Shown here piece after piece: positions 50,664-57,892 of a DNA stretch of 64,000 nucleotides. Source of the stretch: Bremerella volcania (GTDB lineage: Bacteria; Planctomycetota; Planctomycetia; Pirellulales; Pirellulaceae). The stretch covers positions 3,906,001-3,970,000 of the forward strand of contig NZ_CP036289.1 of the NCBI RefSeq assembly GCF_007748115.1. The letters are read 5' to 3'. The notes below the pieces were generated by a model, which did no database searches, was not told where the DNA came from, and saw only the letters and a program-made list of their open reading frames with translations. Both the position numbers and the translations under genes were made by a program. The number at the start of each line of letters is the position of its first letter. Position 1 is the first letter of the stretch.

Positions 50664-51053
50664 ATGAGCGAACAGGAAGCCAAGAAGGCCGAGGATAAGA
50701 CCATCCTGCTGGTGGACGACGATACCGAAATCGTGGAAACGATGCGTTTCGCCCTCGAATCGAAAGGGTATCGCGTGTTGGTCGCCCGAGACGGCAACCA
50801 AGGTCTGGCCCTTGCCGAACGGGACGATCCCGATTTGATCGTGCTGGACATGATGATGCCCAAACGGAGCGGTTTTCTGGTACTGGAAAAATTGCGCCAG
50901 ACGCACAAGGTCCCAACCAAGGTCATCATGGTCACCGGCAACGAAGGGAACCGTCACAAGGCCTACGCCGAAATGCTGGGCGTTGACGACTACATCCGCA
51001 AGCCATTCGCGATGGATCGTCTGCTAGGGGCGGTGGAGAAGTTGATTGGGTAG
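50664..51053 (+). CDS. Single-domain response regulator
   Basis: 129 aa. A short charged N terminus leads to a receiver domain with LVDDDTE, phospho-Asp in LIVLDMMMPKRSG, Thr in MVTGNEG and conserved Lys-Pro in YIRKPFAMD. There is no output domain. A 9-bp hairpin (C50551-C50559 with G50572-G50580) precedes it by about 80 nt. It faces the prkA leader region but is separated by more than 700 nt; its partner kinase is not visible. Confidence 0.9.
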   Translation: MSEQEAKKAEDKTILLVDDDTEIVETMRFALESKGYRVLVARDGNQGLALAERDDPDLIVLDMMMPKRSGFLVLEKLRQTHKVPTKVIMVTGNEGNRHKAYAEMLGVDDYIRKPFAMDRLLGAVEKLIG

Positions 51054-51825
51054 ATTGCTCAAGCAGCGCGTGTCACGCAGCCTCTTTTCGTCGTGACTTC
51101 GGGCACTGAAATACTGCTCACGTTATCCCGGGTTGGGTGAGTCTTTTTTGCTCACCGCGATGCAGTTCGTGGCGATCGTTTTATCTATCTTAACCTACTT
51201 TAATTTGTTTAAAAAAATTACGGGTGACCGTTTGACAGCCATCAATCGGGCGGAACTTTAGATAATTTCGGACGTTGCAATTCGTACCATTTTTCACAAG
51301 TGCTAACCTCACCAAAAACACCGTAATCTTTCTATTGCTTATATCCAGAGTTCGGTCGATACTTCAATAAAGGGAAGGCAAAGTGATCTTGTAGCCGATC
51401 CGACTCGCATTCTTCCCATTTGTTCTTTCTTCGCGACATTCTTTCTCAATCGCGCTCGGCGTTTGGCAGCCTTTTTCCGAGAAGCTGTATGCGCCTGCGC
51501 GGTCCGACAGAATAAGCAGGAAAGATACGACATGGCAAGAATCGCAGAATGCGTCATACAAGTCACCATCGCCCCATCCCCAAAGATTTCGTAGCCCGAG
51601 ATTGGCTCACGATCTGGGCTGCGGACTGTGTCCAACCACAGGTTCACCGAGTGGGACTCGGTTCCTAATTGCAGGAGAGAAATGCTTATGCTCCGCCATC
51701 GAAGTGAAGATTCTTAGCAGCACCCAGGTCTTCCTGGGCCAAATTCTAACGACAAACTTTTAAACGCTTTTTCGCAAATTGCGTTTTAAACATTGGCTTG
51801 TTTCTGCGCTTGAGGTACGCGCCAT
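51054..51825 (+). promoter_or_regulatory. Long intergenic region holding leader copy A
   Basis: 772 nt without an established gene. Near the start is a hairpin GGTGAG/CTCACC (51136-51156) with a T-rich loop after the response regulator. The leader copy A follows (51211-51680), then the 11-codon ORF, a hairpin CCCAGG/CCTGGG (51723-51738), and AAACGC/GCGTTT further down, before the small membrane ORF. A promoter is likely in 51211-51320 but no convincing -35/-10 pair conserved in both copies was found. Confidence 0.5.
51211..51680 (+). repeat. Upstream copy (A) of duplicated prkA leader
   Basis: About 470 bp repeated at 52309-52779, offset 1098-1099 nt. From about 51318 the copies are about 95% identical; the first 100 bp are more diverged. 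The last part, 51599-51669, is identical over 71 nt to 52698-52768 and contains hairpins CTGTG/CACAG (51626-51641) and ACCGAGT/ACTCGGT (51646-51662). It ends in GCAGGAGAG followed by an 11-codon ORF (51682-51717, MLMLRHRSEDS then stop) instead of prkA. There is no transposase or terminal inverted repeat. Confidence 0.92.
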
Positions 51826-52194
51826 ATGAGCTCAAACAGAGCACTACGTGGTCCAACACCTCAGGCAACAAACATTGGGTCAATGCTTTCTCCCTCCTTT
51901 AAGAACGGACGACTTAAGAACACAGAATCTGGAGCCCGGTCAATGTTGGACTATATGGTACTTGCCTTCCTCATTATTTTAGGCACGCTGTTTACTTCCA
52001 TTGTGGTGGGGACGACGTTTGCCGCTGCTATTTTGCTCGTCACGTTTAACCCTGTAGACGTTGAAGTAGACATGCGGAGTCCAAAATTCAAGATTTCACG
52101 CAACTCACGGCACCCACATGGTAACGAGGCACGATCTGAAATCATCCCATTTCCGGATCCTCAAGATAAGAACGACAAGCCTGGAGGAAGGTAA
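51826..52194 (+). CDS. Small membrane protein between the leader copies
   Basis: 122 aa from ATG 51826 (GAGG about 8 nt upstream) or 83 aa from ATG 51943 (GGAG upstream). One strong membrane segment (MLDYMVLAFLIILGTLFT onward, about residues 40-75) is followed by a charged, Pro-rich tail (IIPFPDPQDKNDKPGG). No family is recognised. Its codon use looks less biased than neighbouring genes. It lies exactly between the two leader repeats, so it is expressed, if at all, from copy A. It may be a real accessory gene or a chance ORF. Confidence 0.45.
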   Translation: MSSNRALRGPTPQATNIGSMLSPSFKNGRLKNTESGARSMLDYMVLAFLIILGTLFTSIVVGTTFAAAILLVTFNPVDVEVDMRSPKFKISRNSRHPHGNEARSEIIPFPDPQDKNDKPGGR

Positions 52195-52308
52195 CTTAAG
52201 GAGCTTAACCGCATCGTGATTTCGAGCGTGGTTCGCATGTTTTCTGGCTATTCCGAGCTCACCAGCACCATTTTTGGTGCATCACGATCTGTCGATCTTA
52301 TCTATTTT

Positions 52309-52779
52309 AAAAAAATTACGGGTCACCGTTTCTTGGTAATCGACAGTACCGAACTTCAATTAATTTGGGACGTTACAATTCGTACTATTTTTCACAAGTG
52401 ATAGTGTCCCCCAAAACACCGTAATCTTTCTATTGCTTATATCCGGAGTTCGGTCGATACTTCAATGAAGGGAAGGCAAAGTGATCTTGTAGCCGATCCG
52501 ACTCGCATTCTTCCCATTTGTTCTTTCTTCGCGACGTTCTTTCTCAATCGCGCTCGGCGTTTGGCAGTCTTTTTTCCGAGAAGCTGTGTGCGCCTGCGCG
52601 GTCTGACAGAATAAGCAGGAAAGATACGACTTGGCAAGAATCACAGAATTCGTCATACAAGACCCCATCGCCCCATCCCCAAACGTTTCGTAGCCGTAGA
52701 TTGGCTCACGATCTGGGCTGCGGACTGTGTCCAACCACAGGTTCACCGAGTGGGACTCGGTTCCTAATCGCAGGAGGGA
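52309..52779 (+). repeat. Downstream copy (B) of duplicated leader, 5' region of prkA
   Basis: Second copy of the ~470-bp repeat. Its 3' end carries CTGTG/CACAG and ACCGAGT/ACTCGGT (52745-52761) hairpins and then AGGAGG directly before the prkA ATG. Within 592 nt (52195-52786) no gene is supported. The placement shows the repeat is the promoter and/or untranslated leader of prkA rather than a random insertion. Confidence 0.92.
52698..52768 (+). promoter_or_regulatory. Candidate structured leader RNA element before prkA
   Basis: 71 nt identical to 51599-51669, although flanking sequence differs by about 5%. It can fold into two adjacent hairpins, CTGTG-6 nt-CACAG and ACCGAGT-GGG-ACTCGGT, ending 7 nt before the AGGAGG ribosome site. 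The position suggests control of translation or transcript stability, by inference only. Confidence 0.45.
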
Positions 52780-52786
52780 TCAACAT

Positions 52787-54841
52787 ATGGCCGGCGGTCG
52801 TCAAATCGTTTCTTTTCTGGCAGAGCGCCAGAACCTGGAACAGTTCCGAAAGAAGAACTGGCAAGGAACCTTCGAACAGTACCTCGATCTGGTCGCGCAG
52901 AATCCCTCTGTCACACGTAACGCGTTCCAGCGTTGCTACGACATGATTCTTTCGTATGGGGTGGATACCTACGAAGTCTCCCGCGAAAAGAAAGTTCACT
53001 ACCGCTTCTTCGACGATCCACTCGACCACGGCAAAGACGCAATCTTCGGCCTGGAAGACTCCCAGGTTCAATTGGTCAACGCACTCAAGAGTGCCGCTCA
53101 CGGCTATGGCATCGAGAAACGCGTGCTGCTACTGCATGGACCGGTCGGTAGCAGCAAAAGCACCATGGCCCGATTGCTCAAGAAGGGGATCGAACGTTAT
53201 TCGGCCAAAGACGAAGGTGCCTTGTACTCGCTAGGCTGGAACGATCCCGAAAATCCAGGCGACACGTCGGCCATCCACTGGTGCCCGATGAATGAAGAGC
53301 CGCTGCACCTCATTCCCGAAGATTTCCGCCGAGATGTCGCGGCCCAGTTTCAAGAGGCCAGTGCCTTGGCTGACTATCCACTCAGCATCAGTGGCGAACT
53401 GTGCCCCTTCTGCCGCTACCACTATATGGACAGCCTCACGCGTCATGGGGGCGATTGGACGAAAGTCATCGAAGACGTTCATGTTCGCCGGGTGATCCTG
53501 AGCGAAAAGGATCGCATTGGGATCGGGACCTTCCAGCCCAAGGACGAAAAGAACCAGGACTCGACCGAACTGACCGGCGACATCAACTACCGCAAGATTG
53601 CCGAGTACGGGACTGACAGCGATCCGCGTGCGTTCAATTTTGACGGCGAGTTCAACGTCGCCAATCGCGGCATTATCGAGTTTGTCGAAGTGCTGAAGCT
53701 CGACGTCGCGTTCCTGTACGACCTGCTGGGTGCCAGCCAGGAACATAAGGTCAAGCCGAAGAAATTCGCCCAGACCGACATCGACGAAGTGATTCTCGGC
53801 CATACGAACGAGCCGGAATATCGCCGGCTGCAAAACAACGAGTTCATGGAAGCCCTTCGTGATCGTACGGTCAAAATCGACGTCCCGTACGTCACGCGGC
53901 TTTCTAATGAAGTGAAGATCTACGAGAAGGATTACAACAACGACAAGATCAAAGGCAAGCACATCGCCCCGCATACCATCGAGATGGCGGCCATGTGGGC
54001 GGTATTGACCCGGCTGGAAGAACCGAAAAACGCCAGCCTGACGCTCTTGCAGAAACTCAAGCTATACGACGGAAAGTCGCTGCCTGGCTTTACGGAAGAG
54101 AACATCAAAGAGCTCAAGTCACAAGCTAAACGTGAAGGGATGCTGGGCATCTCGCCACGTTATGTGCAAGACAAGATTTCTAATGCATTAGTCGCACACC
54201 CCGACGCGACTTCGATCAACCCATTCATGGTGTTGAACGAGCTCGAGTCGGGTCTCGGCAACCATTCCTTGATCACCAGCGAAGAGCAGCGAGATCACTA
54301 TCGCCAGCTTCTCGAAGTGGTCAAGGAAGAGTACGAGAACATCGTCAAGAACGAAGTTCAGCGAGCGATTGCCGCCGACGAAGATGCGATGGCTCGCCTG
54401 TGTGCCAACTACATCGACAACGTCAAGGCCTACACCCAGCGCGAGCGAGTCAAGAACAAGTTCACCGGCCAATATGAAGAGCCGGACGACCGTTTGATGC
54501 GGTCGATCGAAGAAAAGATCGATATCCCAGACAGTCGTAAAGACGATTTCCGCCGCGAGATCATGAACTACATCGGTGCCTTGTCGATCGACGGTAAGAA
54601 ATTCGACTACAAGACGAATGAACGTCTCTACAAAGCACTCCAACTGAAGTTGTTTGAAGACCAGAAGGACTCGATCAAGTTGACGAGCCTTGTTTCCAGC
54701 GTCATCGATCAAGAAACGCAGGAAAAGATTGACGTCGTCAAGCAGAGACTCATCCGCGATCACGGTTACGACGACGAAAGCGCTACGGACGTGCTTAGCT
54801 TCGTCGCCAGCATCTTCGCTCGCGGGGATGTGACCGACTAA
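52787..54841 (+). CDS. prkA: PrkA/YeaG-family serine protein kinase
   Basis: 684 aa from the ATG at 52787, with AGGAGG 8 nt upstream; an earlier in-frame start would lie inside the repeated leader. The N-terminal AAA+-like PrkA domain includes [40 protein letters not shown] (Walker A 118-126), and the C-terminal half is the PrkA kinase-like domain. Slightly longer than E. coli YeaG (644 aa). YeaG/PrkA acts with YeaH and YcgB in nutrient-limitation stress and sporulation-related pathways. First gene of the conserved stress operon. Confidence 0.95.
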
Positions 54842-55013: not shown

Positions 55014-56117
<1,104 letters not shown>

Positions 56118-56365: not shown

Positions 56366-57892
56366 ATGCCCATTACGCATCGCAGCTTCGCCAATCTGCC
56401 GGAAGAGCTGGCCGAAGTGCAGGTCGAAATCGAGCAACATGCGCTCGATTACGGCTTGGACTTCTTCCCGACGATCTTCGAGTTGGTCGACGTCGAGCAA
56501 CTCAATGCGATCGCCGCGATGGGTGGGTTTCCAACGCGTTACCCGCACTGGCGTTTCGGCATGGAGTTCGAGCGGTTATCCAAAGGATACCACTACGGGC
56601 TGCAGAAGATCTACGAACTGGTCATCAACAACGACCCCTGCTACGCCTACCTGCTTGCCAGTAATCATTACGCCGACCATAAGCTGGTCATGGCACACGT
56701 GTACGGGCACTGCGATTTCTTCAAGTGCAATCAATGGTTCAGCAAGACCGATCGCAAGATGATCGATCAGATGGCCAATCACGGCAATCGCATTCGCCGC
56801 TACATGAATCGGTTCGGCGTTAGTGAAGTCGAAAACTTCATTGATGCCTGCCTGAGCATTGAAGACCTGATCGACATCCATTCTCCCTTCATTCAGCGAT
56901 CTCGCGGCGAGGACCGCTACAAGTTCGAGTACAACACCGACGGGGACGATGCTGGCCAACCTGCCCGTGACTACAAACTGCCAGCCAAAGGGTACATGGA
57001 CAACTTCATCAACCCGAGAAAGAAACCATCGGACGATGAAGAAGCACCGCGACCAGCCATGGCGATTCCAGTCCCGGACGAGCCCACGAAGGACGTGATG
57101 TTGTTCCTGCTAAAGTATGCCCCACTGCGTCCTTGGCAATTGGACGTGCTGTCGATGATTCGGGACGAAGCTTATTACTTCGCTCCCCAGGGGCAGACGA
57201 AAATCATGAACGAAGGGTGGGCCACCTACTGGCATTCGACCATCATGACGCGGCACGGCCTGCATGCCTCGGAGGTGATCAACTACGCCGATCATACCTC
57301 CGGCACCCTGGCCAGCAGTCCGACACGATTGAATCCTTACAAGTTGGGCCTGGAACTGCTCCGAGACATCGAAGACCGCTGGAATCGCGGCTGCTATGGC
57401 CAGGACTACGACGACTGCGATGATTTCATCGAGCGGCAAAACTGGAACACGGAAGTGGGCCTGGGACGTGGTAAGATCTTCGAGGTACGTCGCATCCACA
57501 ATGATCTGACGTTCATCGACGAGTTTTTGACGCTCGATTTCTGCCGACGGTACAAGATGTTCCAGTTTGGCTACAACGAGTCAACCGAATACTACGAAAT
57601 CGAAAGCCGCGAATTCCCCAAGGTCAAACAGCAGTTGCTGTTCAGTTTGACCAACATGGGTCGGCCCGAGATTTTCGTCACCGACGGCAACTACAAAAAC
57701 CGGGGCGAGTTGTTGCTTTCACATCGGCATCACGGAATCGAACTGAAGATGGACTATGCCCGTGATACGTTGACCAACTTGTACACGCTCTGGAAACGCC
57801 CCGTGCATATTCAATCGACCCTGGACGAGCAGGAAGTACTGCTCAGTTGGGACGGAACGCATCATGAATGCGTGAAACTAGAAACAAAGTAG
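56366..57892 (+). CDS. spoVR: SpoVR/YcgB family protein
   Basis: 508 aa, close to E. coli YcgB (510 aa). AAGGAGG is 7 nt upstream of the ATG. SpoVR-family signatures include HWRFGMEFERLSKGYHYGLQKIYELVINNDPCYAYLL, VYGHCDFFKCNQWF, and NEGWATYWHSTIMTRHGL. In Bacillus SpoVR is needed for spore cortex formation; in E. coli it works with YeaG/YeaH in stress. Clustering of PrkA, YeaH and SpoVR matches the widely conserved operon. Confidence 0.95.
   Translation: MPITHRSFANLPEELAEVQVEIEQHALDYGLDFFPTIFELVDVEQLNAIAAMGGFPTRYPHWRFGMEFERLSKGYHYGLQKIYELVINNDPCYAYLLASNHYADHKLVMAHVYGHCDFFKCNQWFSKTDRKMIDQMANHGNRIRRYMNRFGVSEVENFIDACLSIEDLIDIHSPFIQRSRGEDRYKFEYNTDGDDAGQPARDYKLPAKGYMDNFINPRKKPSDDEEAPRPAMAIPVPDEPTKDVMLFLLKYAPLRPWQLDVLSMIRDEAYYFAPQGQTKIMNEGWATYWHSTIMTRHGLHASEVINYADHTSGTLASSPTRLNPYKLGLELLRDIEDRWNRGCYGQDYDDCDDFIERQNWNTEVGLGRGKIFEVRRIHNDLTFIDEFLTLDFCRRYKMFQFGYNESTEYYEIESREFPKVKQQLLFSLTNMGRPEIFVTDGNYKNRGELLLSHRHHGIELKMDYARDTLTNLYTLWKRPVHIQSTLDEQEVLLSWDGTHHECVKLETK

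Follow-up and report, generated by a model that had tools for sequence, protein, structure and literature searches.

A duplicated prkA promoter and leader in Bremerella volcania and a boxA-like element in prkA leaders across its order

The boxA element of rRNA leaders supports transcription. The signals of rRNA operons are arranged in the order boxB-boxA-boxC, as given in PMC10250234. Control by boxA on mRNA is known, going by what PMC5725501 presents, chiefly from suhB and from a near-start survey in gamma-proteobacteria. The mRNA leader of Escherichia coli suhB carries a functional boxA, with the consensus GYTCTTTAANA; this box sits near the start codon, and its effect is to repress translation (PMC5725501). 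Boxes farther than 50 bp from a start codon were left out of the accompanying survey, and Nus regulation was proposed to reach many genes (PMC5725501); the main text of that paper mentions neither prkA nor any word beginning with planctomyc. The E. coli prkA-DUF444 stress operon, yeaG-yeaH, is the other described system closest to the locus reported here, and according to PMC4664914 yeaG expression occurs in stress conditions, nitrogen starvation among them.

We analysed a window of 64,000 nucleotides from Bremerella volcania (contig NZ_CP036289.1, positions 3,906,001 to 3,970,000), the features of which are listed in Table 1. Its prkA gene, encoding a PrkA-family serine protein kinase, matched the Pfam profiles AAA_PrkA and PrkA (PF08298 and PF06798) well over their cut-offs and NCBIfam NF011999 below its cut-off. 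DUF444 and SpoVR-family genes follow, the kinase and DUF444 genes being neighbours as in yeaG-yeaH, and the response regulator gene found upstream was likewise upstream of prkA in the seven genus relatives examined.

The prkA promoter and leader are present twice in the window. A preliminary description had placed the two copies 1098-1099 nt apart, and two aligned segments were found at exactly these spacings: 51208-51476 versus 52306-52574 (spacing 1098, 89% identity) and 51472-51701 versus 52571-52800 (spacing 1099, 90% identity). Overall identity was 87.3% over 511 aligned columns. When copy B was used as a blastn query against the whole genome, copy A was recovered at E 2.7e-189, and the remaining ten matches were short (17-26 bases) and no better than E 0.43. 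The copies have diverged at about 13% of positions and lie on a single contig of an assembly that is 99.49% complete, which makes a simple assembly artefact unlikely; the duplication is confirmed as real. Copy B leads directly into prkA (ATG at 52787), and copy A ends in an 11-codon ORF followed by a membrane-type ORF, both as previously described. The identity of about 95% given earlier for the last 350 bp was slightly high: identity there is indeed high, and differences in three segments within 52463-52789 (2/105, 12/200, and 7/21) put it at about 94%. A 22-nt leader match at seven other places in the genome was rejected as chance; the three places inspected (L004, L007, and L008) fall in near-identical 346-aa transposase-like genes, which occur at several places in this genome.

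Table 1. Features of the duplicated prkA leader and its neighbourhood (positions in the window).
Feature	Position	Strand	Basis
Single-domain response regulator gene, upstream	50664-51053	+	profile match
Copy A, duplicate of prkA promoter/leader	51208-51701	+	repeat alignment, blastn
Copy A predicted promoter, TTTCTATTGCT...CGATACTT	51329-51364	+	genus conservation, PWM
Copy A probable P1 hairpin, AAGGGAAGGC...TTCTTCCC	51370-51417	+	folding, order-wide pairing test
Copy A degenerate boxA, ATTCTTTCTCAA (first G to A at 51438)	51438-51449	+	pattern scan
Copy A putative hairpin CTCGG...CCGAG after boxA	51455-51481	+	genus alignment by eye
11-codon ORF at end of copy A	51682-51717	+	sequence; near weakened ribosome-binding site AGGAG, 51673-51677
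Orphan 122-aa ORF, putative coding	51826-52194	+	hydrophobic stretch at about residues 41-75, by eye
Copy B, apparently ancestral prkA leader	52306-52800	+	repeat alignment, relatives
Conserved upstream box CAATTCGTACTATTTTTCACAAG before copy B promoter	52376-52398	+	genus alignment
Copy B predicted promoter	52427-52462	+	PWM
Copy B probable P1 hairpin	52468-52515	+	folding, order-wide pairing test
Copy B boxA-like element, GTTCTTTCTCAA	52536-52547	+	pattern scan; sole exact GHTCTTTNNCAA in the 64-kb window
Copy B putative hairpin CTCGG...CCGAG after boxA	52553-52580	+	genus alignment by eye
prkA, PrkA-family serine protein kinase	52787-54841	+	PF08298, PF06798
DUF444 (YeaH/YhbH-like) gene	55014-56117	+	profile match
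SpoVR-family gene	56366-57892	+	profile match

Sixty relatives were searched for the leader. It was single-copy in seven of the eight same-genus genomes, matching in two pieces in one of them (G004); the eighth (G003, 68% complete) contained neither the leader nor prkA, and three further genomes, outside the genus, aligned over only 26-90 bases. Two copies were detected only in B. volcania. The 65 bp directly upstream of copy B match three close relatives (83-85%), and this shared flank indicates that copy B occupies the ancestral place. Judged from these sequences, copy B is the ancestral leader and copy A with the orphan ORF is an addition; both were absent from all close relatives searched (the seven leader-bearing genus genomes). 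According to the preliminary description, a copy A that was missing from relatives and gave no transcripts would speak against its reading, and the absence was found in these seven genomes. In the leader tree, the branch of copy A was longer than that of copy B (0.098 versus 0.024 changes per site). None of three clade tests was rejected (p 0.19-0.30), and the tree thus leaves the duplication undated. The leader branches of B. volcania and its closest kin (0.009-0.066) were shorter than the branches of their prkA coding sequences (0.061-0.11). Extra leader segments of about 60 nt in G004 (L015) and about 14 nt in G008 (L012) were missing from the other genus members.

The duplicated segment would comprise the promoter and the long untranslated leader of a prkA-DUF444-SpoVR operon, with transcription predicted to start just after a conserved TATTGCC-N17-GATACT promoter. 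A PWM built from nine family promoters scored above its threshold of 10 in 56 of 68 genera, compared with 4 of 68 after shuffling, and 37 of the 41 other-family genera passed. The conserved box upstream of the promoter is a possible activator or UP site, and a similar stretch was found in another genus (L017).

The first 90 nt or so of the transcript probably form a hairpin, P1, located between the start and the boxA-like element described below. Across 58 genera, the P1 arms scored -14.04 with their own partner and -12.72 with partners permuted across genera (p 1.5e-4). Pairing of the 5' arm with the sequence after the box gave no signal (p 0.86); pairing of upstream DNA with the 3' arm deviated too (p 0.017), implying that part of the P1 signal may be composition. 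When sequences were shuffled genus by genus, just 5 of 26 genera gave p<0.05, RNAalifold returned no structure from a MAFFT alignment of 26 leaders, and no order-wide pairing enclosing boxA (p 0.92) or after it (p 0.27) was detected. The partner-swap result, the one deviating control, and the alifold result apply equally to P1 as a boxB-like part ahead of boxA. These helix tests replaced an earlier wide-arm duplex test, in which P1 gave p 0.006 but a control gave p 0.045. Small GGA-loop hairpins were seen between the start and boxA in several prkA leaders (e.g., GGCAAGGAUCGCC), which we take to be reminiscent of CsrA sites. Three further readings, judged by eye, were set aside: remains of prkA, ORFs on the minus strand, and an upstream ORF at ATG 52465, whose ATG is not kept in copy A, G005, G006, or G008.

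The main feature of the leader, overlooked in the preliminary description, is a boxA-like element that recurs throughout the order. Of the 103 regions examined upstream of prkA, 96 contained the pattern GHTCTTTNNCAA exactly and all contained it with at most one mismatch (45/45 from the family and 58/58 from other families), whereas shuffled upstream regions contained it at 0.05% and 3.2%, respectively. The 103 genomes represent 68 genera and 18 families; Blastopirellula marina DSM 3645 (Pirellulales) has the element too (L022). The 103 were drawn from 241 family genomes, in which prkA is patchy (a match in 45), and from an order sample of 296 genomes with prkA in 99; 78 of these 99 belong to other families, of which 58 were examined. 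Family sequences were used to derive the pattern, and the other families then gave 18/18 and subsequently 40/40 within one mismatch (1.4% for shuffled versions of these 40); position 8 was relaxed after these 58 had been viewed, and only then were all 58 exact. Exact matches numbered 97 on the sense strand and 0 on the antisense strand. G at position 1, TCTTT at positions 3-7, and A at position 11 were kept in 103/103 leaders, C at position 10 in 98, and A at position 12 in 102; positions 8-9 were A in none. A pyrimidine-rich tail directly follows the box. Between the box and the start of the prkA match there are 188-660 nt, and the distance of the box from the predicted -10 box is nearly constant (median 108.5 nt, IQR 102-116), which places it at about +100, a fixed position in the predicted transcript. 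By eye, a looser CTGCGCG-like stretch also recurs about 80-100 nt after boxA in many prkA leaders of the order.

Outside the order, exact GHTCTTTNNCAA was found in 0 of 27 planctomycete prkA upstream regions (15 from the same class and 12 from others). Eight of the 27 contained it within one mismatch in the sense direction, compared with 4.2% in shuffles and 1/27 on the other strand, suggesting that weaker boxes may exist beyond the order and that its limit may not be sharp. Unlike the leaders of the order, E. coli K-12 yeaG had no box within one mismatch in the 800 nt preceding it, and nor did nine further prkA loci (one with only 40 nt of upstream sequence). The idea that boxA is unique to prkA in its own genome was rejected, as CGHTCTTTYNCAA gave 13 matches versus 3 for a reversed control; 9 of the 12 sites besides prkA lie in frames of 399-893 codons. 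The other three lie in frames of 136, 232, and 263 codons, which are not long frames. No description of the prkA leader or of a boxA on prkA was found in the open-access literature, and the order-wide element is apparently undescribed so far.

The reading that we favour, with moderate confidence, is that the prkA-DUF444-SpoVR leader is a boxA (NusB/NusE) antitermination leader, of which copy B would be the working, ancestral version and copy A a damaged older duplicate. Once P1 has been transcribed, the nascent RNA would expose GNTCTTTNNCAA, which would bring NusB/NusE(S10) and further Nus factors to RNA polymerase. Most likely, polymerase would then withstand Rho along the whole of the long untranslated leader. 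Rho protection of the leader is favoured by the distance of the box from the start codon. If polymerase gains Rho resistance in this way, prkA expression would depend on the supply of Nus factors and S10, that is, on the state of ribosome synthesis. The effect may also have the opposite sign, with the prkA boxA repressing, as the suhB boxA does. A wider proposal, plausible but tentative, is that the entire order controls the PrkA operon by a dedicated variant boxA (GNTCTTT, two positions other than A, then CAA) on a long leader, with kinase expression tied to the supply of Nus factors and free S10 and through it to ribosome synthesis, and that in B. volcania this module was copied and its boxA broken, so that prkA would have two promoters that differ in processivity.

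The state of copy A was assessed by counting the changes specific to it at positions where copy B, G001, G002, and G005 agree. In the core (52376-52567), 2 of 175 positions had changed, compared with 12/38 upstream and 13/197 downstream (25/235 in total). The core differed from the rest at p 6.5e-5 and from the downstream part alone at p 0.0077, its bounds having been chosen after the changes were seen. The counts support the view that the promoter and early leader of copy A are far better preserved than the sequence on either side, and with this core kept copy A may still start transcripts. In contrast, its box has lost the first G, which is invariant in 103/103 prkA leaders, and of the 18 genus-invariant sites near the SD and the start, 6 have changed; its 11-codon ORF opens at an ATG 6 nt earlier. 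The duplication of promoter and leader claimed in the preliminary description stands, and the prkA-type control ascribed to copy A would extend to the promoter and hairpin, which are kept, but not to the boxA G or the start region. On this evidence, copy A is best read as an upstream promoter that has survived although its signals for antitermination and translation are damaged. With such damage it would be at most an extra promoter, the transcripts of which would run across the orphan ORF with less protection. Nearly as likely is a dead relic whose core was kept by chance or by past gene conversion with copy B, an explanation that we regard as possible though on the doubtful side. The altered boxA and ribosome-binding site and the absence of copy A from the seven relatives would fit it; the avoidance of the core by the changes, subject to the post hoc bounds, does not. 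Copy B also carries changes at 52445, 52604, and 52643 that are not present in copy A, which disfavours recent conversion across these positions.

The antitermination reading draws on the resemblance of the prkA box to the boxA found in rRNA leaders of its order. Seventeen loci with full-length 16S matches were scanned, and the start of 16S could be placed for 16 of them; GHTCTTTGA was present in 16/16 of these leaders, 160-335 nt before 16S, and exact GHTCTTTGACAA in 12. As in the rRNA leaders, where boxA serves NusB/NusE antitermination, GNTCTTTnnCAA occurs in the sense orientation and early in the leader, on a transcript with a long untranslated stretch, and the nine positions that are nearly invariant are the same (G, T, C, T, T, T, C, A, A). 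NusB is encoded in the genome (PF01029, E 2.4e-33). The prkA box differs in sitting on the mRNA of a kinase operon and at positions 8-9, which are never A, compared with GA in 16/16 rRNA leaders and AA in the E. coli consensus; its reader may therefore differ. The suhB boxA likewise sits on an mRNA leader, but the prkA box is much farther from its gene and belongs to another phylum. The departure at positions 8-9 in every leader, the pyrimidine-rich tail, and the length of the leader (188-660 nt) could also be explained by an RNA element that is read by a factor other than NusB/NusE, such as a small RNA or another RNA-binding protein, and acts after initiation, its likeness to boxA being convergent. 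We consider this unlikely, given that all nine near-invariant positions coincide with the rRNA boxA of the order and that neither the leader in the window nor the loci of 15 relatives matched any Rfam family at gathering score.

The preliminary description held that the leader duplication had captured or created a small membrane-protein gene under prkA-type control. For the orphan ORF, a length of 122 aa was reached in only 0.5% of shuffles, its frame exceeded its five other frames in codon score, GAGG precedes its ATG, and the promoter and early leader of copy A are preserved. However, its codon score (-0.14 bits/codon) was below that of all sampled pieces of the long genes in the window (mean 0.30, minimum -0.04), and its GC3 was 47% compared with 66% in those genes. 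No relative was found in 241 family genomes beyond five weak matches (E 9.9e-4 to 0.0099), which were partial, with 30-36% identity and in frames of 184 to 1122 codons, and were rejected as chance likeness of membrane segments. None was found in viral contigs, plasmids, or phages, and the best protein-family matches were at E 0.054 in Pfam (below cut-off) and E 0.073 in PHROGs, with none in NCBIfam. The ORF may be de novo, foreign, or spurious. The lack of relatives and the codon score speak against a captured or newly created gene, and with the boxA and start region of copy A altered as well, its capture under prkA-type control, while possible, appears quite improbable.

The weakest alternative, that the prkA box is a DNA site for an activator bound downstream of the promoter, would suit the nearly fixed distance to the promoter and is very improbable in view of the single orientation, the location about 100 nt inside the transcript, and the identity with rRNA boxA.

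The duplication is modest by itself; its value lies in exposing the order-wide boxA-like prkA leader, and the diverged copy A provides a natural boxA variant adjoining the wild type. If the antitermination reading is true, the leader would be a deep non-ribosomal case of boxA in planctomycetes, held on one kinase operon in 103/103 genomes from 18 families, with the element located far from the start codon and outside the range of the published survey (PMC5725501). It would also link a stress kinase to ribosome assembly.
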